A stretch of 20,019 bases of DNA from a virus, in IMG/VR virus record IMGVR_UViG_3300046516_000051, positions 1 through 20,019 of that record; one strand, given 5' to 3'. Position 1 is the first letter of the stretch; each line of letters begins with the position of its first letter. The notes beneath the pieces were generated by a model, which made no database searches, had not been told where the DNA came from, and saw nothing but the letters and a program-made list of their open reading frames with translations. A program made the position numbers and the translations under genes. Positions 1,788 through 19,250 of this stretch are shown here, in pieces.

Positions 1788-1981
1788 CTTGTTGGCTGAC
1801 AATTAGCGACGAGGTCCGAGATCAGCTTATCGCGCCGCAGACCGTGTTCGTTGACCGAATACAATAGCCCGGATGTCATGATCAGGAACAGCACGTTGAC
1901 CAGGACCAGAGCCAGCGCCAGCGGCCTGTCCTTTAGGCCGTCGGTGACAGAGCTGATGATCTTGCCGGTGGTCTGGATCAT
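1784..1981 (-). CDS. Small one-helix membrane protein (holin-like candidate)
   Basis: A 65-residue protein with one clear transmembrane segment at about residues 22-46 (LALALVLVNVLFLIMTSGLL), a 20-residue N-terminal part ending in DRP, and a charged C-terminal tail (RRDKLISDLVANC) that may form a short amphipathic helix. The start chosen overlaps the preceding TGA as ATGA; the longer frame beginning at 2059 has no such support. Rhizobial phages carry similar small proteins near their lysis genes, which makes a holin, pinholin or inner-membrane spanin role reasonable, but no endolysin lies beside it. The single helix and short tail do not discriminate between these. Confidence 0.72.
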   Translation of the reverse strand: MIQTTGKIISSVTDGLKDRPLALALVLVNVLFLIMTSGLLYSVNEHGLRRDKLISDLVANCQPTR

Positions 1982-3342
1982 GTGTACGGCGCTGTCGGTG
2001 GCGTGAAATTGGCGGTCCACATTGCCTTGCCTTTGACAATACGGAACTCGTCCATGCATTGGTACCCACCGTTATATCCCCCGGTATTCCAGTAGCCCCA
2101 TATTATGGCGCCGCTGTTGCTTGGGAATGGCTGCGACGAGGCCTGGGTGGATTGCAGTATACCATCCTTGAAGCCGTAGAACGTGGTGCCTTTGCGAACG
2201 AGGGCGCGGTGCGACCACACGTTGGGAGTAAATGGTCCGAGATTTAAGCTGCCAACAACATTCCAGCTTGCTTGGTCATTTGAGCCATAGGCATACAAAG
2301 TCCCGGCGCTTGCGTAACCTATCAAGAATGGCTGGTAGACAAGCTGGCCACTATCTCTCACCAATGTCGGGCGACTATCGACTCCGTCTAGACGATAGTC
2401 CCACCAATCAATCGTCAGGTCGCCATAGCCAAAGTTAAAGTCTTCGCTGTTCCCGAAATAAAAGTATGAGCTGTTGTAATCAACGTACAGCGATTGACCG
2501 AATTTGGCGGTGCCACTTATTTGCGATACGCCAGCGACACCGGCATTGCCCTTTGCATATACGGAGCTGTCTGGAAATGTTTGCGCCCCCGGTGTGCCGT
2601 CGCCGTGCAGCAGCAGCACAGTGTGGTATTGGGAATAATCCGGGATGGGACCATACGGTGTTGTTGGAGGAGAGAAATTAGATACCCATCTGGCAACGCC
2701 TTTGCTGAAACGGATTTGATCCATGTAGCCCTGGTAGTGGGTCGTCCACGGGCCAAAGTACAATCCGCCATTGCCCGTATAAAGCGGTAGCGCGGATGTC
2801 CACGTCGCTACTTGCGTGCCGTTCTTGAAGACGAGAAATGTATTGCCGTTGCGAACGACTGCAAAATGGTTCCACACATTGTACTGAAGCGCGCCGCAAT
2901 TAACGCCGCTGGCAATGTCCCATGTACTGTTGTTGCTCGACATGTAAACGAGCCAGTTGCCAGCACTTGAATAGCCAAGAAGGAACGCCTGTGGATTGGT
3001 GTCGGCACTTCGCCTCACAAAACAAGATTGATCGGAGGCGGCAGTCCTGTACTCCCACCAATCGATTGTAAAATTGCCGCTACCAAAATCAAAGTCGGTG
3101 CTATTCGGCATGAACAGATAGCTGCCGCCCGGCAGATACATCGAGCCAGCGCCAACCTTGCTGGTGGCACTGATCTGCGTCGTGCCGTATGGAGTGCCAA
3201 CACGCCGCTGCGTCGCGCCTATTCCCTTGTTGAGAAAGGTGCCGTCGTCAAACGACAGCAGCAGTGTGGTGTAGCCGTCGTTGCCGGTGGGACTGCCACC
3301 GGACGCGCTCATGCCAAGCGAGGGATTGACCCCCGACAGCAT
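1978..3342 (-). CDS. Tail fibre/adhesin with tandem LamG-like lectin domains
   Basis: A 454-residue protein made almost entirely of two homologous concanavalin A-like (Laminin_G_3-type) domains, residues ~24-230 and ~239-453. The copies line up through their length: YTTLLLSFDDGT / YHTVLLLHGDGT at the start, FTIDWWEYR / LTIDWWDYR in the middle, NVWNHFAVVR / NVWSHRALVR, and the closing strand MDQIRFSKGVARW / MDEFRIVKGKAMW followed by NFxPPTxPY. These beta-sandwich domains commonly bind carbohydrates, and phage particles often carry them for receptor or capsule contact. There is no signal peptide, as expected for a virion protein. It follows the short fibre gene with a one-base TAATG overlap, so the pair may form one fibre with this protein as the distal, sugar-binding part. 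Receptor identity is unknown. Confidence 0.85.
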   Translation of the reverse strand: MLSGVNPSLGMSASGGSPTGNDGYTTLLLSFDDGTFLNKGIGATQRRVGTPYGTTQISATSKVGAGSMYLPGGSYLFMPNSTDFDFGSGNFTIDWWEYRTAASDQSCFVRRSADTNPQAFLLGYSSAGNWLVYMSSNNSTWDIASGVNCGALQYNVWNHFAVVRNGNTFLVFKNGTQVATWTSALPLYTGNGGLYFGPWTTHYQGYMDQIRFSKGVARWVSNFSPPTTPYGPIPDYSQYHTVLLLHGDGTPGAQTFPDSSVYAKGNAGVAGVSQISGTAKFGQSLYVDYNSSYFYFGNSEDFNFGYGDLTIDWWDYRLDGVDSRPTLVRDSGQLVYQPFLIGYASAGTLYAYGSNDQASWNVVGSLNLGPFTPNVWSHRALVRKGTTFYGFKDGILQSTQASSQPFPSNSGAIIWGYWNTGGYNGGYQCMDEFRIVKGKAMWTANFTPPTAPYT

Positions 3343-3986
3343 TACCGGAAGTCCGGCTGGAACGAACAGAAGGCCAGATTGATACCGGCAAAATACGAAT
3401 ATGAGATGGCGTCCCTGGCGCCGTTAGCCGACAGCGTTGGCTTGACGCCGCCGGGGAAGATCCACTGGTTGCCCCACGTCGTGATCGAGGCCCCGGCGGC
3501 GTTGGCGAAGAGATAGATCAGCCCCTTCTGCGATTTCACGTTGACCGGGTTTGCCAGGGTGCGGCCAGCCGCCGTGACCGACACGGAAAAGTCTATGCCG
3601 GTGGAAAAGTCGCAAGTGATCGTCCCGCTGGTATCCACGATCGTGACGGGACCAGCCGCGCTCCACAGCGTGCCGCTGGTGACCATCCTGGATTGCGGAT
3701 TGTTGGACAGATACTCCGCCAGCGTTGCTGCCGTGACAGCGGACGCTGCAGCTCTCGTCGTGTCGGTCGGATGGACGTGATCTTCTCTGGAGTACTTGAT
3801 CGAGCTGCCGGGCAATGCCGGTGAGGCGTTGATGAGCGGCAGCGCCACTGAGGCATCGAGTGTGCCAGAGCTGCCGCCGTAGGTTGTCCACTTCTCGCCA
3901 TCCCAGGTGTAGACCGGAAGCCCTGGAGTGGGCGTGGCCGGAAACTTTTGGCCTACGACAGGAGCGGCTGGAAAATCAAAGGCCAT
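3342..3986 (-). CDS. Short tail fibre protein sharing N-terminal module with the collagen-like fibre
   Basis: A 214-residue protein. Residues 1-38 (MAFDFPA...[13 protein letters not shown]) are nearly the same as the start of the 507-residue collagen-like fibre, including similarity at DNA level, so both probably dock on the same virion site or assemble on the same partner. A short REDHVHPTDT motif near residue 70 is also shared. The remaining ~130 residues look like beta-rich fibre sequence with no enzymatic motif (SGTITCDFSTGIDFSVSV; TTWGNQWIFPGGVKP). The last third resembles the end of the larger fibre in style (a short beta domain after the stalk). A GAGGTGAG Shine-Dalgarno precedes the ATG. 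It is followed by the LamG gene with a one-base overlap, so this may be the base and stalk and the LamG protein the tip. Confidence 0.82.
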   Translation of the reverse strand: MAFDFPAAPVVGQKFPATPTPGLPVYTWDGEKWTTYGGSSGTLDASVALPLINASPALPGSSIKYSREDHVHPTDTTRAAASAVTAATLAEYLSNNPQSRMVTSGTLWSAAGPVTIVDTSGTITCDFSTGIDFSVSVTAAGRTLANPVNVKSQKGLIYLFANAAGASITTWGNQWIFPGGVKPTLSANGARDAISYSYFAGINLAFCSFQPDFR

Positions 3987-4615: not shown

Positions 4616-4925
4616 GCTCCGGTTCCTTGGCTAGCTTCTTGGTGATGTGTACCGTTCGCGCATTGTCTTCGAGGCCTATGATCTCGTGCGGAAAGCCAGC
4701 GAAAGTATCAAGCACGGTGCCGCTCTCGTGTATGCCGTTCTCCACGGCGCCGTTCTCCATTATGATCCTGATCAGTACGCGCCCTCTGGCAACGATGATG
4801 ATATGAGACGTTGCATCATCGTGATTGTGCATCGGCAAGCAGTCACCCGCCTTTTGATAGTCGTACATCAGCAACTGTAGGTCGCCTATCTTGGCTCCGT
4901 TGATGACCGGCATGCCCATACTCAT
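4587..4925 (-). CDS. Single-domain cupin protein
   Basis: A 112-residue small beta-barrel. Cupin motif 1 is visible as CLPMHNHDDATSHIIIVARG with H33, H35 and H41, and motif 2 as FAGFPHEIIGLED with H80; the Glu usual in motif 1 is not at its normal place. A metal site of mainly His ligands is therefore possible. Reaction unknown: small cupins range from sugar-modifying enzymes to dioxygenases and binding proteins. The start at 4925 forms TAATG with the stop of the hydroxylase gene, with GGAG eight bases upstream; the longer frame from 4952 would overlap the hydroxylase for no visible reason. It has been placed directly after the 2-oxoglutarate oxygenase, so both may act on the same fibre or receptor-related substrate; this is inference. 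Confidence 0.82.
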   Translation of the reverse strand: MSMGMPVINGAKIGDLQLLMYDYQKAGDCLPMHNHDDATSHIIIVARGRVLIRIIMENGAVENGIHESGTVLDTFAGFPHEIIGLEDNARTVHITKKLAKEPEHENGNSNPV

Positions 4926-5494
4926 TAGCGCAACTCCGGTCCCGCCACCCACATAACGAGTGATCGCCGCACACCTTTCGTCACCGGCCTCACCTCGTGA
5001 ACGATCTCAGAGCGAAAGAACGTCGCCATGCCCCGCATACGCGGCATGGTAACTGGTGTGAGGTTGTGCGGGTACAGCCACAACTCGCCGCCCTCGTAGT
5101 CTTCAGGTTTCGACAACTGCAGGCTCATGCTCAGCTTGCGGTGATGATCGGTGTACTTGCCGTATGTACAGTCTGCATGAGAGCAGTAGCGGCCACCGTC
5201 GTATTCGGTCAGTTGTAGGTTTTCGATGGTCGTTAACTCCAGGTGGAAGTGCTTGTTGACTTGGTAGACCGCATCATCGAGAGCGGTGTAGAGCCACTCA
5301 ATCTCAGGCTTAGGCATCAACCAATCGATTGTGCTGTCCCTCTGCTCAGGATTAACCTTGCCAGCGTCAACCTTGCCAGCGTGTTTATTGTCGCTCCACA
5401 GCGCATCAATCTTGTCCAACTCCTCCGCAGCGAACACTTCAGACGAAGCAACCCACGCTTGGCGCGGATACGTTTGTAGCTTCCACATAGACAT
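4925..5494 (-). CDS. 2-oxoglutarate/Fe(II)-dependent dioxygenase, prolyl 4-hydroxylase type
   Basis: A 189-residue enzyme with the double-stranded beta-helix signature of the 2OG-Fe(II) superfamily: H106-A-D108 (YCSHADCTYG), the distal iron ligand H166 (SEIVHEVRPV) and the 2-oxoglutarate-binding arginine R176, ten residues later (TKGVRRSLVMWV). The strand motif RKLSMSLQLS and YEGGELWLY are characteristic of the P4H/PKHD branch. Such enzymes couple oxidative decarboxylation of 2-oxoglutarate to hydroxylation, in the P4H group of proline or other side chains. The N-terminal ~60 residues form a cap, with a small tandem duplication (AGKVDAGKV). It starts three bases after the glycine-rich collagen-like gene with only a weak Shine-Dalgarno, and precedes the cupin with a one-base overlap. 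Its position next to Gly-X-Pro-rich fibres suggests those as substrate; alternatives are another virion or host protein. Confidence 0.88.
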   Translation of the reverse strand: MSMWKLQTYPRQAWVASSEVFAAEELDKIDALWSDNKHAGKVDAGKVNPEQRDSTIDWLMPKPEIEWLYTALDDAVYQVNKHFHLELTTIENLQLTEYDGGRYCSHADCTYGKYTDHHRKLSMSLQLSKPEDYEGGELWLYPHNLTPVTMPRMRGMATFFRSEIVHEVRPVTKGVRRSLVMWVAGPELR

Positions 5495-5496
5495 GT

Positions 5497-6090
5497 TCAG
5501 CTTGTCGTCACTTGCACGTAGCCAGGACTACCGGCACTTCCAGGACTACCCCAACCGCCAGTGCCACCAGGACTGCCTGGATTGCCATTCTGAATTGGCA
5601 CACCAGGGCTTGTATGCCAGTAACCAGGGGCACCTGCTGCACCGGCAGCACCATACATGCCAGCAGCTCCAGCAGTGCCAGCAGCGCCTACAACAACGCT
5701 GACACCTGTGCGTGGTTGAAGCGTGCTGCTGCTGCGTTGATACGTTGCGGTACCGGCAGCTTGGAATGATGATGCACCACCAGGACCACCAGCACCGCCT
5801 GGGCCACCAGCACCTCCTGCACCGCCACATCCGGGAGGAACATAGTATGCCGCCATACCCGGCCAGTACTGACAATTAGCGGGCGTCCACACGCCAACTC
5901 CGCAAGAGCAGTTGTAAAATATAGGATAGCTACCGGGTGTCCCGGGTGACCCGGGTGATCCTGGTGTTCCAGATGATCCTGGTGTGCCGTTCACAACATT
6001 GGCGGCGACGGCACGATAATTATTCGGCACGATAAATGACGCAGGGCCATTGATCATGCTTGTCCCAGTTATGATGGCGAAGCCTCTCAT
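5497..6090 (-). CDS. Glycine-rich collagen-like fibre tip/adhesin
   Basis: A 197-residue protein of low complexity. Gly-X-Y runs occur at about residues 35-55 (GTPGSPGSPGTPG), 89-106 (GGAGGPGGAGGPGG), 135-156 (GAAGTAGAAG) and 169-190 (GSPGSAGSPG). In the first and last runs proline falls mostly in the Y position. Between them lies a Cys-containing aromatic segment (NCSC at 60-63, C73, C88) and a beta-like stretch. Two readings are possible: a collagen triple helix, or the polyglycine-II sandwich found at the tips of some phage fibres such as the T-even gp38-type adhesins. The position after the large collagen-like fibre (TGATG overlap) supports a tip or accessory role. It may be the substrate of the hydroxylase encoded next. 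Function is inferred from composition and position only. Confidence 0.82.
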   Translation of the reverse strand: MRGFAIITGTSMINGPASFIVPNNYRAVAANVVNGTPGSSGTPGSPGSPGTPGSYPIFYNCSCGVGVWTPANCQYWPGMAAYYVPPGCGGAGGAGGPGGAGGPGGASSFQAAGTATYQRSSSTLQPRTGVSVVVGAAGTAGAAGMYGAAGAAGAPGYWHTSPGVPIQNGNPGSPGGTGGWGSPGSAGSPGYVQVTTS

Positions 6091-7613
6091 CAGCCCAGGC
6101 TCGCGTTGACCGCCACAAGTTGCAGCAGTGTGTGGGTTGCATCAAAGACAGAATAGCTCATCACGCTCCACTTGTTGGCGATGGTGCCGATAGTGAACGC
6201 CGTATCACCGTCGCAGCAGTAGCCGTTCGATGTCAGACCGCTGAGCGTGCGGCTGCCGGTGGCGTCCTGTTTGATGGCGATCAGCCCATCGGTGCCGACA
6301 ACCGGCGTCTGCAAATAGCCAAGGGTGCGATTGCCGCCCATTGAGTTAAGCCTGAAGTTGCGGCCAATTCCCCCACTTGAACCGCCCGGCACAACAATGG
6401 TGGCGGCGTCCGTCAGCAATACCCATGAGGTGTCGGGCGGAGGCGGCACGTTGGCGGCAACCTTGGCGTCCACATACTGCTTGGTTGCGGCGTGAAGAAG
6501 CGCCGTGGGATCTGCACCCAGCGTTAAAAAACCGGACATGGTATCGCCGGTCTTGCTCACGAAATTGTTGATGTCGGGCTGCGGGCAGGCGACAATCCAC
6601 TGGCCGGGCGGGCCGGACGGGTCAATGTAAAACACATAAAGCAGCCCGCTATCACTCTCCCACCAAAGCGTGCCGGGCAGCGGATTGGCCGGGGCAACGT
6701 CCATGATGACAATGCCGGAACCACCCGTGGTTTTGTCATCGACATATTTTTTGGTGGCGCTGTGCAAATCTATTGTTGGTGCGCCGGACAGCGTCAGCAG
6801 GCCGGTCATGACGCCACCGGACTTGGCGACCAGCGAGGTGTCGCTGGGGTGAACGTGGTCTTCCCGCGAATAGGCTGTCGCGGCGCCCGGCGCAGCCACT
6901 CCGTTCATCACCGGGTTGACGGTGCTGGGCGCCAGACCAAGGTTGGCGCGGGCAGTGGCGTAATTTGTCAAACCGGCAAGGTTCTCCGACTTGAGCATGT
7001 CACCGGAGCCGGAACCGGCTGGTCCGGTTGCTCCGGTGGGTCCGGTAGGTCCAGGGCTGCCCTGTGGCCCGGGGGGTCCGGTCAATCCAAGGGGTCCGGT
7101 CTGCCCAGGCACCCCCTGGTCACCCGGGTCACCCTTGTCCCCCTTGTCGCCCTTGACGCCCTGCGCCCCAGTCGATCCAGAGGGGCCAGCAGCGCCGGTC
7201 GAGCCGGATGCCCCGACTGGCCCCTGGGGTCCAGGCGGTCCTGGAGGCCCAACGGCGCCAGCAGGCCCAGGCCCGCCAGACATATCAACGTATCGCTTGG
7301 TGGCCGCCTGCAAATCCAATGATGGATCGCTAGCCAATTCCAGCACGCCGGTCATGACGCCGCCAGACAGGGCCAGCCGTGACGTGTCGCTGGGGTGGAT
7401 ATGATCCTCTCTGGAGAACTGAAACGAGATGCCCGGCAGGCCCGGCGTTTGATCCATTAGCGGGATAAGCAAACCGGCGGCGCCGGGCGCCGCCACGATG
7501 CCGCCATAAGTCGTCCACTTCTCGCCGTCCCAGGTGTACTGGGGCACACCGGATATTCCCGGCGAGGGATACCTGTCTCCGATTGCTGGCGATGCCGGAA
7601 AATCGAAGGCCAT
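6090..7613 (-). CDS. Collagen-like tail fibre protein
   Basis: A 507-residue fibre. Residues 1-38 form the shared docking module (MAFDFPA...[13 protein letters not shown]). A stalk repeat follows ([29 protein letters not shown]; ~68-110), then an uninterrupted Gly-X-Y stretch from residue 113 to 199 (29 triplets) with KGDKGD ion-pair motifs and Y-position prolines at 115, 124, 127, 163, 169, 181 and 187. Two more stalk repeats (~250-294 and ~354-385) flank a segment also found in the preceding fibre (LWW..DSGLLYV..., [10 protein letters not shown]). The last ~110 residues are a beta-rich end domain. Collagen-like triple helices in phage fibres give thin rigid trimeric rods; trimerisation here is inferred. 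The stop overlaps the next ATG by one base. Confidence 0.88.
7014..7277 (-). repeat. Coding Gly-X-Y (collagen) repeat tract
   Basis: 264 bases encode 29 unbroken Gly-X-Y triplets inside the 507-residue fibre. The DNA is a degenerate 9-base-type repeat (GG-glycine codons every third codon), so slippage or unequal recombination could change stalk length. The GDKGDKGD block and GPP triplets fit a stable triple helix. Confidence 0.85.
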
Positions 7614-7617
7614 CTGA

Positions 7618-8850
7618 TCAACTCTTCTTCGCGAGAATTAGATCAACGTACTGAACCTGGAGCGCGACTGAGTGAGCGTGCGGCTGACCGCCAGCGCCCC
7701 CAGCAACGCCAGAGGTGAGCGCCGGGCAGTCAATGGTGTAGAGCGCGGTAGAGTACACAAAGTATCCCCAGATGCCGCCAGGGTTGTTCTCCTCGAACAC
7801 GCCATACGGAATGGTATGCTTGTGTTCGGCCATCTGCGACGAGGCCAGTGTGGCGCCGCTCGTTGCGTTCTGACTGAACACAGACGAGAACGGCGTGGCG
7901 CCGCCAGCGCCACCACCCGCAGTGCTGACGATGCGAAGCGCCTTGTCGTGATGCGTGGTGACCTGGACCCATCCGGTTGGCGCTGCCGCCTGATAGAACG
8001 GCAGCGTGGTGTCGGTCGGAAACGGCGGCGGGACGACGATGGAGGCGATAGCAGCGGCAATGTGATCGTCTACATATTTCTTGCTGACTGCCTCGTCATC
8101 GAACGTCGGCGGTTCATGCACATGCAGCGGTCCGGTCATGCTGTCGCCGCTGCGCAGCACCAGCGTGCTGATGTCGGGCTGTGGACAGGCGATAACCCAC
8201 TGCGGCGGACCGTTCAGATCATTGTATCGGACATAAAGTAGTCCGGAGTCTGTATCCCACCAAAGCGTGTTATCGCGTGCTGCCGCAGGCGCCCCGTCTG
8301 ATGTCTGCAATATTGTATCGGCGTATTGCTTGGGCACAGCTTGCAGCGTGCCGGTCGGATCACCGGACAGCGTCAGCAGGCCGGTCATGGTGTCACCGGC
8401 CTTCAGAACGAACATCGATGACTGATTGAGAACCCACGTCGTCCAGACGCCGCCAATCTTCATGCGGACATAGACGGGACCGTTTGGATCGGTCAGGTCG
8501 CGGGCCTCGATAATAATCGCGCCTGGAGATGCCCAGTAGGCGATGCCAGCAAAGGCGTGGTTGGCGACGGGTGCATTGGTGGCGAGGATGTCTGAATAGA
8601 ACGAGCCAGCCATCCACGAATAGCTGTCGTAGTTGTCGATATGCTGGAGCATCTTCTCGGCGGATAGATTATTCAGGGCGCCGTCTGCGGTCGACGCACC
8701 CGTGCCACCAGCAACGATAGGCCGTGGCGTGTTCAGATCCCGCTCAACGTCATGAACGAAAGAGTTGTACTTCTCGCTCTCAATCGTCGTGTCTGGAATG
8801 CCCTCGGTGCCGAGAGGTATGTGATAAATGTTTGAGCCGTCGCGTGGCAT
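7618..8850 (-). CDS. Tail fibre protein with collar-like C-terminal tip
   Basis: A 410-residue fibre, first of the fibre group. The N-terminal ~60 residues hold an attachment-like region with the motif [18 protein letters not shown], which is common at the start of phage fibre stalks. Stalk repeats of the form [14 protein letters not shown]...KQYAD occur at ~155-185 and ~235-265, with a shared module [14 protein letters not shown] and [10 protein letters not shown] between them. The C-terminal ~130 residues match phage tail-collar/tip domains: [31 protein letters not shown], the His pairs EHKHT and HAHS, and the final strand [11 protein letters not shown]. In other phages the His pairs bind metal ions in the trimeric tip; the same is likely here. 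It begins eight bases after the last ejection-protein gene, with an AGGGGG Shine-Dalgarno. Confidence 0.87.
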
Positions 8851-16896: not shown

Positions 16897-18546
16897 CTAG
16901 ACGTTTACGCCAAGACGCTCGAAGGTTGCGCTGATCGAAATCAGCTCCACCACTGGTGTGGCGTGCTGCGCCACGGTCACCTGACAGATCGGCGCGTGCG
17001 AGAACCCGGTCTCGCCGATCGACACCCAGCCAGTGTTGCGCACCACGGGCGCAAACAACGCCGCCGCCTGATCCCACAGCGCGTGCCCTAATGGCGGATC
17101 TGTTCCCCACAGCCCCTGGTCCCACACGTCTGGGATGCCAGGATCAGGACCGGCCTGTGGCGGGATCGGGATCTTGACGACGTAGTCGGTGCATGCCGAA
17201 AGCTGCGGGACGAACGGCTGGCCGGGCACCGACGAGAACGTAGCGCGGGCCTGATGCCAGACCACGGTGGCTGCAGTCTGCTGAAACATCTCCCAGCCGC
17301 CCACCATGACAGCGGTGTACGGATACTGGTTGTCGTCGTAGCCGGTGCGGTTGGCCTCCATGATCTTGCCGGTCTGAGTGCCGAAGAACATGCGACCGTG
17401 CAGATAGATCCAGCACAGCGCGTCCCATCCAGTGATACGACCCCAGGCGCCTGTGGCGCTGTTGGCGACGCCAACATACTGCTTGCCCTCCGGGCCGCCC
17501 GGCCACGTCGTGATGACGCCACCCCACTCGTCCCACTTCTTCATCTGCCAGGGAAACGTATTGCGTGTGGTCACCATGTCCCGCCATGTGGACTTGATGT
17601 TGCGGGTCAGGCTGGCGAGGTCGAGCTGGTCCTGCGTCTTGGTAATAGCCTGAGATACCGGAACGATGCCGTCGACCGTCGCTATCAGCAGATCGCCGCC
17701 GATCGACATGTGGGCGTTCTGCCCCATCGGCTTGCTGATCTGGTAGCGGCCCTCTTGCCGCCAGTTGGTGGCCACCGACGGGTCACCGCCACTGAATATG
17801 AGCAGCTCACCCTGGTCGGTAGCGAAGACGCATTTGTCGTCGGTGCCGTCGCCTGCATCTATTGACCATGTCGCGCCAAACAGCAGCTTACCGCCCCTGG
17901 TGGCGGCGCCGGACAGCGGGATCATCAGCAGCGCGCCCTGGATAGCATTGAGGGGCAGATACCAAGCGTTCATCGATTGGTATTCGATGAAGAACAGCCG
18001 GTTGCGATACTTCCAGACATAGACGAGATCCCGGCCATGCTCGACGGCGCTGTCTATCGGGCCGTTGATCTCGTCATTGGTCAGCTTAGTCCACGTCGTA
18101 CCGTCAAACCGCAGCGGCGGGTCGCCACCGCTGTCAGTCACCGCGACCATCCAGTCGCCGCCCTGATTGGACAGTTGGGTGGCGGAATAGTTTCCTGACG
18201 ACATCCCGGCCACGACCTCCTGCGGGAAGCCCGACACCGACACGTCGTAAAGCTTGCTCTGATTGGCGGCGAAGATCTTGTCGTTGCCGTAGGAGATGTA
18301 TTCAAAACCAGAGATGACCGGCTCGACCTCGGGCAACTGTGCCCACCGCACACTGCCACCACGCAACTTGACTCCGCGCAGTGTCGGCACCCAGTTGTCC
18401 AGACGAATGGCGCCGCCCGGCTGCATGTAGGTAAAGTTCTCGCTCTCGATGATGCCGCGTGTTGGCGCCGGGAACGTCATGGTCTGATAGTGCTGCGCCA
18501 CCTCCGGCTGCACCGGCACCCGTTTAAAGGCTTGATGTCCACTCAT
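16897..18546 (-). CDS. Tail hub/stabilisation protein (P22 gp10-like role)
   Basis: A 549-residue, beta-rich protein with no signal peptide. It opens with a tail-attachment-like segment (FPAPTRGIIESENFTYMQPG, LDNWVPTLRGVKLRGGS) typical of the large proteins that close the portal or form the nozzle in short-tailed phages. Repeated strand-turn units of propeller type follow (GFEYISYGNDKIFAANQSKL, GGDWMVAVTDSGGDPPLRFD, YVWKYRNRLFFIEY, GGDLLIATVDGIVPVSQAI). The C-terminal ~100 residues form a separate beta-rich end domain. In P22 the corresponding protein, gp10, binds below gp4 and stabilises packaged DNA, and T7 gp12 plays a similar role. The assignment is from order and sequence style. It overlaps the adaptor gene by four bases (ATGA). 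Confidence 0.83.
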   Translation of the reverse strand: MSGHQAFKRVPVQPEVAQHYQTMTFPAPTRGIIESENFTYMQPGGAIRLDNWVPTLRGVKLRGGSVRWAQLPEVEPVISGFEYISYGNDKIFAANQSKLYDVSVSGFPQEVVAGMSSGNYSATQLSNQGGDWMVAVTDSGGDPPLRFDGTTWTKLTNDEINGPIDSAVEHGRDLVYVWKYRNRLFFIEYQSMNAWYLPLNAIQGALLMIPLSGAATRGGKLLFGATWSIDAGDGTDDKCVFATDQGELLIFSGGDPSVATNWRQEGRYQISKPMGQNAHMSIGGDLLIATVDGIVPVSQAITKTQDQLDLASLTRNIKSTWRDMVTTRNTFPWQMKKWDEWGGVITTWPGGPEGKQYVGVANSATGAWGRITGWDALCWIYLHGRMFFGTQTGKIMEANRTGYDDNQYPYTAVMVGGWEMFQQTAATVVWHQARATFSSVPGQPFVPQLSACTDYVVKIPIPPQAGPDPGIPDVWDQGLWGTDPPLGHALWDQAAALFAPVVRNTGWVSIGETGFSHAPICQVTVAQHATPVVELISISATFERLGVNV

Positions 18547-19250
18547 GGCGTCGGCACCGGCCAGGGATAGGAAACTCCAGCACTGACCGAGATCGGCGAC
18601 CGTCCGGCGATGATCGGCGCGGGCTTGTCACCGCCCATCACCATCAGCAGCGCGTCGCCGTATGTCCCCATATCTTCGGCATACGGCGACCCCTTCTGAG
18701 CCTTCCACTGCCAAATCATGCCCAGCTTGTGGATACGATCGCCCAGGATGAAGCTGTCACCGTCATCGAGAAACGTGTCGCCAACGCCACCGGAAAACAG
18801 CTTGATGCAGTTCTTCTGGAGGTACGGAAACGACGCCGTTTCAGCGGTGCCAAGCACTGGGACGATATGCATCTGGCCGCCCATCATCGTCCACTCGCCA
18901 CGGCTGTCGCTGTAGTTCCTGGCGCGACGGTTCGTCCACTCGTCAACGTCAGGAACGAAACGCATCGGCGCCACCAGAGTGGAAGAACGCCAGACGTTGG
19001 ACGACAGCAGCATGCGCCTAAAGTCGGTAGGTAAGGTCCAGGCCGTGGTGACGCCGTCGCCGGTAACCACTGCGTTCTTGGTCAGTTGTGTCCACTCACG
19101 GGTGTCGTAGGCGATCTTCTGCGCCACCTCGTTGGCCAGCGTCAGCATCTCCGACATGGTTCGGTTGGTGCTGATTGCCGAGAACACCGACGGCGGTATC
19201 GCCACGCCGACGGTTAGGCAGACATCCTTGACCACCGACAGTAACGACAT
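18543..19250 (-). CDS. Head-to-tail adaptor (gp4-like)
   Basis: A 235-residue protein. It begins with a helical segment (LLSVVKDVCLTVGVAIPPSV), then MSEMLTLANEVAQKIAYDTREW, the helix-and-loop signature seen in phage adaptor or head-closure proteins, followed by a beta-sandwich-like part with LPTDFRRMLLSSNVWRSS, DEWTNRRARNYSDSRGEWTM and IWQWKAQKGSPYAEDMGTYG. This pattern is familiar from alphaproteobacterial prophages and fits the role of P22 gp4 or T7 gp11: a ring of subunits that attaches the tail to the portal. Its gene lies directly before the tail hub, as it does in those phages. It overlaps the preceding gene by one base (TGATG). Confidence 0.83.
   Translation of the reverse strand: MSLLSVVKDVCLTVGVAIPPSVFSAISTNRTMSEMLTLANEVAQKIAYDTREWTQLTKNAVVTGDGVTTAWTLPTDFRRMLLSSNVWRSSTLVAPMRFVPDVDEWTNRRARNYSDSRGEWTMMGGQMHIVPVLGTAETASFPYLQKNCIKLFSGGVGDTFLDDGDSFILGDRIHKLGMIWQWKAQKGSPYAEDMGTYGDALLMVMGGDKPAPIIAGRSPISVSAGVSYPWPVPTP

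Follow-up and report, generated by a model that had tools for sequence, protein, structure and literature searches.

Introduction

The closest described relatives of the enzyme considered here, a 189-residue 2-oxoglutarate (2OG)-Fe(II) oxygenase encoded next to glycine-rich tail proteins in the IMG/VR virus record IMGVR_UViG_3300046516_000051, are the PHROG_61 oxygenases of cyanophages and pelagiphages. The whole stretch analyzed, hereafter the window, is this complete record of 20,019 bases, which comes from a soil phage. PHROG_61 is the same profile family, and several of its cultured members lie in tail cassettes; beyond its own species, no relative that was found shares more than ~43% identity with the window enzyme. 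The group has been likened to the human prolyl hydroxylase EGLN3, with no substrate given (PMC12774648), and control of 2OG and nitrogen is among the published ideas for cyanophage 2OG oxygenases (PMC3037559). PKHD-type enzymes (YbiX, PiuC and Sbal_3634), the nearest sequences in the Protein Data Bank (PDB; profile E-value 9e-20), have the same HxD/H/Arg layout, but they occur in another genomic setting and are 225-243 residues long, whereas the 189 residues of the window protein stop at the end of the oxygenase domain. Fold and probable reaction class are also common to the prolyl 4-hydroxylases (P4Hs) of Pseudomonas (P4H/EF-Tu), chlorella virus (vCPH) and Bacillus; however, these bacterial and viral enzymes are only ~20% identical to the window enzyme, which has Arg instead of the collagen-type Lys. 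Mimivirus is likewise a virus with a collagen-like protein and modifying enzymes, L230 and R699 (PMC9546862), but these act on lysine, whereas the window enzyme is prolyl-hydroxylase-like and has a bacterial host. On the side of possible substrates, the gp38-type polyglycine-II (PGII) adhesins of Salmonella phage S16 and of PP01 are small Gly-rich tail proteins encoded next to fiber genes (PMC12892980). In the open-access literature searched, we found no earlier proposal of a phage prolyl hydroxylase associated with a collagen or a fiber.

Here, we show that the presence of the oxygenase goes with more Pro-Gly sites in neighboring Gly-rich tail proteins, an association that was replicated in new loci. 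We also put to the test the proposal that the substrate is the collagen-like fiber encoded in the same gene row.

The oxygenase and its gene row

Profile searches placed the window protein in PF13640 (53.2 bits against a cut-off of 27 bits). Its active site, H106-x-D108, H166 and R176, was intact, as the preliminary description of this DNA had said, and all four residues were invariant across 14 aligned oxygenase sequences; the diversity of that alignment precluded a pattern scan, and smaller sets were used instead. An AlphaFold2 (AF2) model built from six sequences (predicted local distance difference test, pLDDT, 83) had the double-stranded beta-helix of prolyl hydroxylases. The best PDB matches found with Foldseek (E-value 2.5e-10) were Dictyostelium PHD, Pseudomonas P4H, PHD2 and chlorella-virus vCPH, and further fold matches included algal P4H and Bacillus P4H. 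By sequence profile, PKHD enzymes (YbiX/PiuC) were nearest, followed by Pseudomonas P4H, vCPH and Bacillus P4H, and the best score against the PKHD/YbiX equivalog of NCBIfam was 49.8 bits, below the cut-off of 143 bits. Judged by the model, the enzyme has the fold of a protein prolyl hydroxylase, which together with the PDB matches supports the original assignment of the gene. In collagen P4Hs a Lys ligates the C5-carboxylate of 2OG, and in PHD2 and PKHD enzymes an Arg; the basic residue at this position of the window enzyme is Arg (R176), invariant in its relatives, and not the Lys of the collagen type.

The oxygenase gene follows those of a 507-residue tail fiber and a 197-residue Gly-rich protein, and all three have the coordinates and lengths first given for them (Table 1). 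The stop codon of the fiber gene and the ATG of the 197-residue protein share one base (TGATG), 2 bases lie between the stop of the latter and the oxygenase start, and the ATG of a cupin-like gene lies within the oxygenase stop with a 1-base overlap (TAATG). A search for promoter-like sites between these genes found none.

Both proteins upstream of the enzyme contain the Gly-X-Y runs claimed for them from the outset, and these are far above shuffled expectation. The longest run in the fiber has 30 triplets (longest in 2000 shuffles, 7), and the 197-residue protein has 30 triplets in runs of at least four, a figure for which shuffles reached at most 13. The fiber passed the Pfam Collagen profile (PF01391, 52.2 against 27.2 bits); the 197-residue protein, at 21.4 bits, did not, nor did it match the Gly_rich_2 profile (PF21722), which the Gly-rich proteins of relatives do match. 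Proline makes up 12% of the Gly-rich part of the 197-residue protein against 7.9% in the other minus-strand open reading frames (ORFs). The Y-position bias that had been described for this small protein holds, with 15 of the 18 prolines in its Gly-rich part preceding Gly. Its Pro-Gly content per Gly (0.36) is the highest among all oxygenase-linked Gly-rich proteins, and it holds two GGPGG and many S/T-Pro-Gly sites. PGII-like Gly-rich runs of the gp38 kind are plausible in this protein; unlike gp38, however, it matches no adhesin family by sequence and lies inside the fiber row, not at its end.

Proline-glycine enrichment near the enzyme

Whether or not the enzyme is present, tail cassettes of this kind normally include Gly-rich proteins with short Gly-X-Y runs; what differs is the proline content of these proteins. 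For this survey, a locus was counted as enzyme-positive if an oxygenase lay within 5 genes. Because loci were cut at 6-10 kb, the enzyme may have been missed in some of those labeled negative, an error that would dilute any effect. Control tail cassettes (n=32) were anchored on PHROG_7759, a small tail-cassette protein of ~120 residues ('TFA'). This protein (for example, L217 3385-3741 and L211 6578-6943) adjoins Gly-rich tail proteins in at least 26 of 32 lineages and is likely a partner or chaperone of Gly-rich adhesins. In one oxygenase subclade, 62 of 78 loci had a Gly-X-Y or Gly-rich protein at most 5 genes away. Across all 63 dereplicated oxygenase lineages the share was about half, against 26-27 of the 32 control cassettes, most of which lack the enzyme; plain co-occurrence was thus rejected as evidence, Gly-rich proteins being near-standard in enzyme-poor cassettes.

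In the discovery set, the Gly-rich parts of TFA-adjacent (PHROG_7759-type) proteins contained 5.0% proline with the enzyme and 1.6% without it (p=4e-8), and the excess was significant in all three comparable bins of guanine-cytosine (GC) content. For the replication, the hypothesis was fixed beforehand, new loci were used and proteins sharing at least 15% of 7-mers with the discovery set were left out. Proline was again higher (4.4% versus 2.4%, p=1.8e-6), as was Pro-Gly per Gly (p=4.9e-6). The combined, dereplicated set comprised 85 enzyme-linked and 122 enzyme-free non-collagen Gly-rich proteins, with 5.3% and 2.9% proline, respectively, in the Gly-rich part (p=1.5e-14). Proline was the most changed of the 20 residues, Asp being next (depleted, 8e-7), and proline beyond the Gly-rich part was unchanged (p=0.26).

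The excess was concentrated before glycine: X-Pro-Gly rose 3.3-fold and Gly-Pro-Gly 2.75-fold, against ~1.5-fold for proline without a following Gly. PGG and SPG ranked as the top two in a scan of 958 tripeptides, and GGPGG was present in 27 of 85 enzyme-linked but only 3 of 122 enzyme-free proteins. A longer motif, NTP..SP.QGN.GG, was rejected as a target signature, being present with and without the enzyme. In pairs matched by TFA similarity, proline was higher with the enzyme in 39 of 43, against the GC gradient. Phylogenetic regression gave t=7.6 with maximum-likelihood (ML) lambda and 4.7 with lambda 1, and 13 of 14 independent pairs agreed. A subset with GC>0.5 and equal background proline still differed (7.6% versus 3.9%, p=1e-3), and under varied region definitions and dereplication levels the sign was kept, with p for proline from 2e-17 to 2e-3.

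The enzyme shares a cassette with Pro-containing Gly-rich proteins in cultured phages too, among them Pelagibacter phages HTVC023P, HTVC033P and HTVC008M and Synechococcus phages S-RSM4 and S-CAM8. The bacterial chromosomal relatives of the oxygenase (mostly Rhodobacteraceae) do not lie beside Gly-rich genes.

A proposed protein prolyl hydroxylase for Gly-rich tail proteins

P4Hs prefer the X-Pro-Gly motif class (as cited in PMC8968730). We consider it somewhat probable that the window enzyme is a tail-cassette protein prolyl hydroxylase acting on X-Pro-Gly of Gly-rich fiber or adhesin proteins from the same gene row, with the 197-residue protein as the favored substrate candidate and the 507-residue collagen-like fiber as the second. 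The activity, substrate, timing and effect that we infer are as follows: the enzyme would be made late, translationally coupled to its substrate, and would act on the growing chain ahead of assembly; hydroxyproline may then add stability or hydration to PGII-type Gly-rich helices like those of gp38 adhesins, or alter receptor-facing loops. The wider proposal, that many phage lineages hydroxylate X-Pro-Gly in Gly-rich receptor-binding proteins and that fibers gain Pro-Gly sites together with the enzyme, is put forward more tentatively, as a plausible extension.

Several observations weigh against such a role. The Pro-Gly enrichment, read from sequences, is a correlation only, and Gly-rich fibers are also common without the enzyme. 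The tree behind the phylogenetic tests comes from a ~120-residue protein and has few supported branches, on which only 2 of the independent pairs fall, and the strictest dereplication weakens p to between 4e-5 and 8e-3. In the podovirus family of the window, one lineage has the enzyme, and the enzyme-free podovirus Gly-rich proteins are not poorer in proline than enzyme-linked proteins elsewhere (5.5% versus 4.9%; PG, 0.071 versus 0.048). Their background proline is likewise high (7.1% versus 3.8%), and podovirus controls alone would not show the proline effect; two of them without the enzyme (L142 and L160) surpass the Pro-Gly density of the 197-residue protein. No homolog of that protein was found outside this phage species, and an AF2 prediction made without relatives reached a pLDDT of 31 and gave no usable fold model. 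Finally, many relatives of the oxygenase in cultured cyanophages adjoin uvsW or replication genes, not fibers.

Collagen, host and ancestry as alternatives

The preliminary description had suggested the Y-position proline of the collagen-like fibers as the substrate. The enzyme would then hydroxylate the Y prolines of the 507-residue fiber triple helix, as animal collagen P4H does, and raise its thermal stability. The same gene row does encode a run of 30 triplets, 7 of them with proline in Y, the fold matches include vCPH and Bacillus P4H, and the latter hydroxylates (PPG)n with a preference for Y (PMC8968730). However, although the prolines listed earlier are present in the fiber, they are not concentrated in Y (12 in X, 7 in Y), and a preference for X is also that of bacterial collagens without a hydroxylase (Ghosh et al., PMC3368898). 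The Arg at the 2OG-binding position likewise speaks against this substrate. A run of at least 10 triplets lay at most 5 genes away in 13 of the 63 oxygenase lineages and in 5 of the 32 control cassettes (p=0.78), and Y-position proline in true phage collagens was independent of the enzyme (p=0.95), for which reason it was rejected as a signature of collagen modification. Proline in true collagen runs likewise did not differ with the enzyme. Within the phage family to which the window belongs, no PF13640 gene was detected in 27 related records, and a search of related records gave two with collagen fibers above the Pfam cut-off, in the absence of the enzyme. With no excess of collagen runs near the enzyme and no dependence of Y proline on it, the collagen-specific claim fails the fiber survey proposed along with it, as far as that survey could be run, and we regard it as unlikely. 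Of the pairing of enzyme and substrate first suggested, the prolyl hydroxylase fold and the replicated Pro-Gly link speak in its favor, whereas collagen Y proline as the specific substrate is not supported.

More doubtful still is an action of the enzyme on a host target, such as EF-Tu in the manner of Pseudomonas P4H, or on 2OG levels during infection, with its place in a tail cassette being incidental. The second-best fold match, Pseudomonas putida P4H with EF-Tu, would suit such a function, as would the several relatives outside tail cassettes and the modulation of 2OG proposed for cyanophage oxygenases (PMC3037559), but such a function does not predict a Pro-Gly rise confined to the Gly-rich part of neighboring tail proteins, and the gene row overlaps structural genes. 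The absence of any functional link, with the enzyme and the Pro-rich Gly-rich proteins co-inherited or sharing a habitat and the proline difference reflecting ancestry, would fit the small number of independent switches with good support in the tree, the largely different searches from which enzyme-positive and enzyme-negative sets came and the podovirus controls that are Pro-rich without the enzyme, but it is the least probable reading, as the effect persists under phylogenetic regression, in matched pairs and after GC matching or normalization to background proline, is limited to the Gly-rich part and is strongest in Pro-Gly contexts.

Other features of the window and possible collagen lysine modification elsewhere

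On five other contigs, both the oxygenase (100% identical) and its neighboring genes recur. The gene content is podovirus-like, with PHROG_5107 and PHROG_6013 tail genes at 16897-19250, a Peptidase_S74 protein and then the fibers. The cupin-like protein gave no match in the PHROG search. The 214-residue protein of the cassette is 50% identical to residues 1-95 of the fiber, as measured in the identical record G001. At the contig edge, a plus-strand ORF (2-361) is possibly a host-derived gene; the signal at its C-terminus, Pro/Gly and hydrophobic as well as Arg-rich, resembles the PEP-CTERM-type sorting signals of bacterial proteins.

Table 1 Coordinates of features in the window and of fusion proteins at other loci
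Feature	Location	Strand	Basis
454-residue protein, two LamG-like lectin domains, cassette end	1978..3342	-	PF13385 7e-23
214-residue protein, downstream part of fiber cassette, shares fiber N-terminal region (MAFDFP...)	3342..3986	-	
Cupin-like protein, 112 residues	4587..4925	-	Weak Cupin_1 match, E 0.0099, under cut-off
2OG-Fe(II) oxygenase, 189 residues, prolyl-hydroxylase/PKHD type	4925..5494	-	PF13640 6e-14, PHROG_61 1e-24
Gly-rich protein, 197 residues, several Gly-X-Y runs, 15 Pro-Gly sites	5497..6090	-	Repeat counts versus shuffles
Tail fiber, 507 residues, with collagen-like segment	6090..7613	-	PF01391 52.2 bits; PHROG tail-fiber matches
30 uninterrupted Gly-X-Y triplets, fiber residues 113-202	7008..7277	-	Sequence
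Tail fiber protein, 410 residues, upstream of collagen-like fiber	7618..8850	-	phrog_24210 tail fiber 1e-15
GT25/PLOD/lysyl-hydroxylase-like fusion (S-PRM1 gp162)	L087 7552-9396		
GT25/PLOD/lysyl-hydroxylase-like fusion (S-CAM9)	L433 6543-8384		
GT25/PLOD/lysyl-hydroxylase-like fusion (S-8S55)	L434 6552-8417		
GT25/PLOD/lysyl-hydroxylase-like fusion (CRP-6 gp58)	L548 7926-9695		
GT25/PLOD/lysyl-hydroxylase-like fusion (short fragment, no fiber)	L549 1835-3766		

A different arrangement was observed in Synechococcus phages S-PRM1, S-CAM9 and S-8S55, in which a fiber with 55-59 triplets is followed by two such oxygenases and then by a fusion protein of 613-621 residues. Its domains are a procollagen-galactosyltransferase-like GT25 and an LH3-type PLOD glucosyltransferase (PF25342, down to 4.5e-48), and in S-PRM1 a lysyl-hydroxylase-like 2OG domain could be aligned to Mimivirus L230. 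Roseobacter phage CRP-6 has a fusion protein of the same kind two genes past a fiber with 99 triplets. All fusion loci except L549 have a Lys-rich collagen-like fiber a few genes away (55-99 triplets, 26-44% Lys in Y where measured). The five fibers linked to such GT25/oxygenase proteins had 26-47% Lys in Y, against 0-24% (median 0) in 20 other phage collagens (p=2e-4). This looks like an animal-type pathway for collagen lysine hydroxylation and glycosylation in one protein of cultured bacteriophages, and the loci of the S-PRM1/CRP-6 type are better candidates for phage collagen modification than the window.

Two further loci (L266 1-6465 and L264 1-6540) encode very long Lys-rich collagen-like proteins with 261 and 105 triplets, and there a GT4+GT25+2OG (OGFOD2-like) protein of 746/763 residues adjoins a prolyl-hydroxylase-type oxygenase. 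At L212 (3068-12539), two giant Ser/Thr-rich Gly-X-Y proteins of 870 and at least 1019 residues (an open frame of 3528 residues in the full record) adjoin a glycosyltransferase/FkbM methyltransferase protein and an oxygenase.

Implications for phage biology

Few unexplained accessory genes of marine phages are as common as those for 2OG oxygenases, which are usually attributed to host metabolism. The link with Pro-Gly in Gly-rich tail proteins offers a concrete, testable substrate and shifts the function toward host recognition. On the evidence of the sequences, our results suggest that phages may chemically modify their own host-binding proteins. If so, phage adhesins would bear hydroxyproline, which is normally not sought by virion proteomics, and recombinant fibers made without the enzyme would lack it. 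Bacteriophage adhesins would then undergo a post-translational modification whose signature can be read from sequence.

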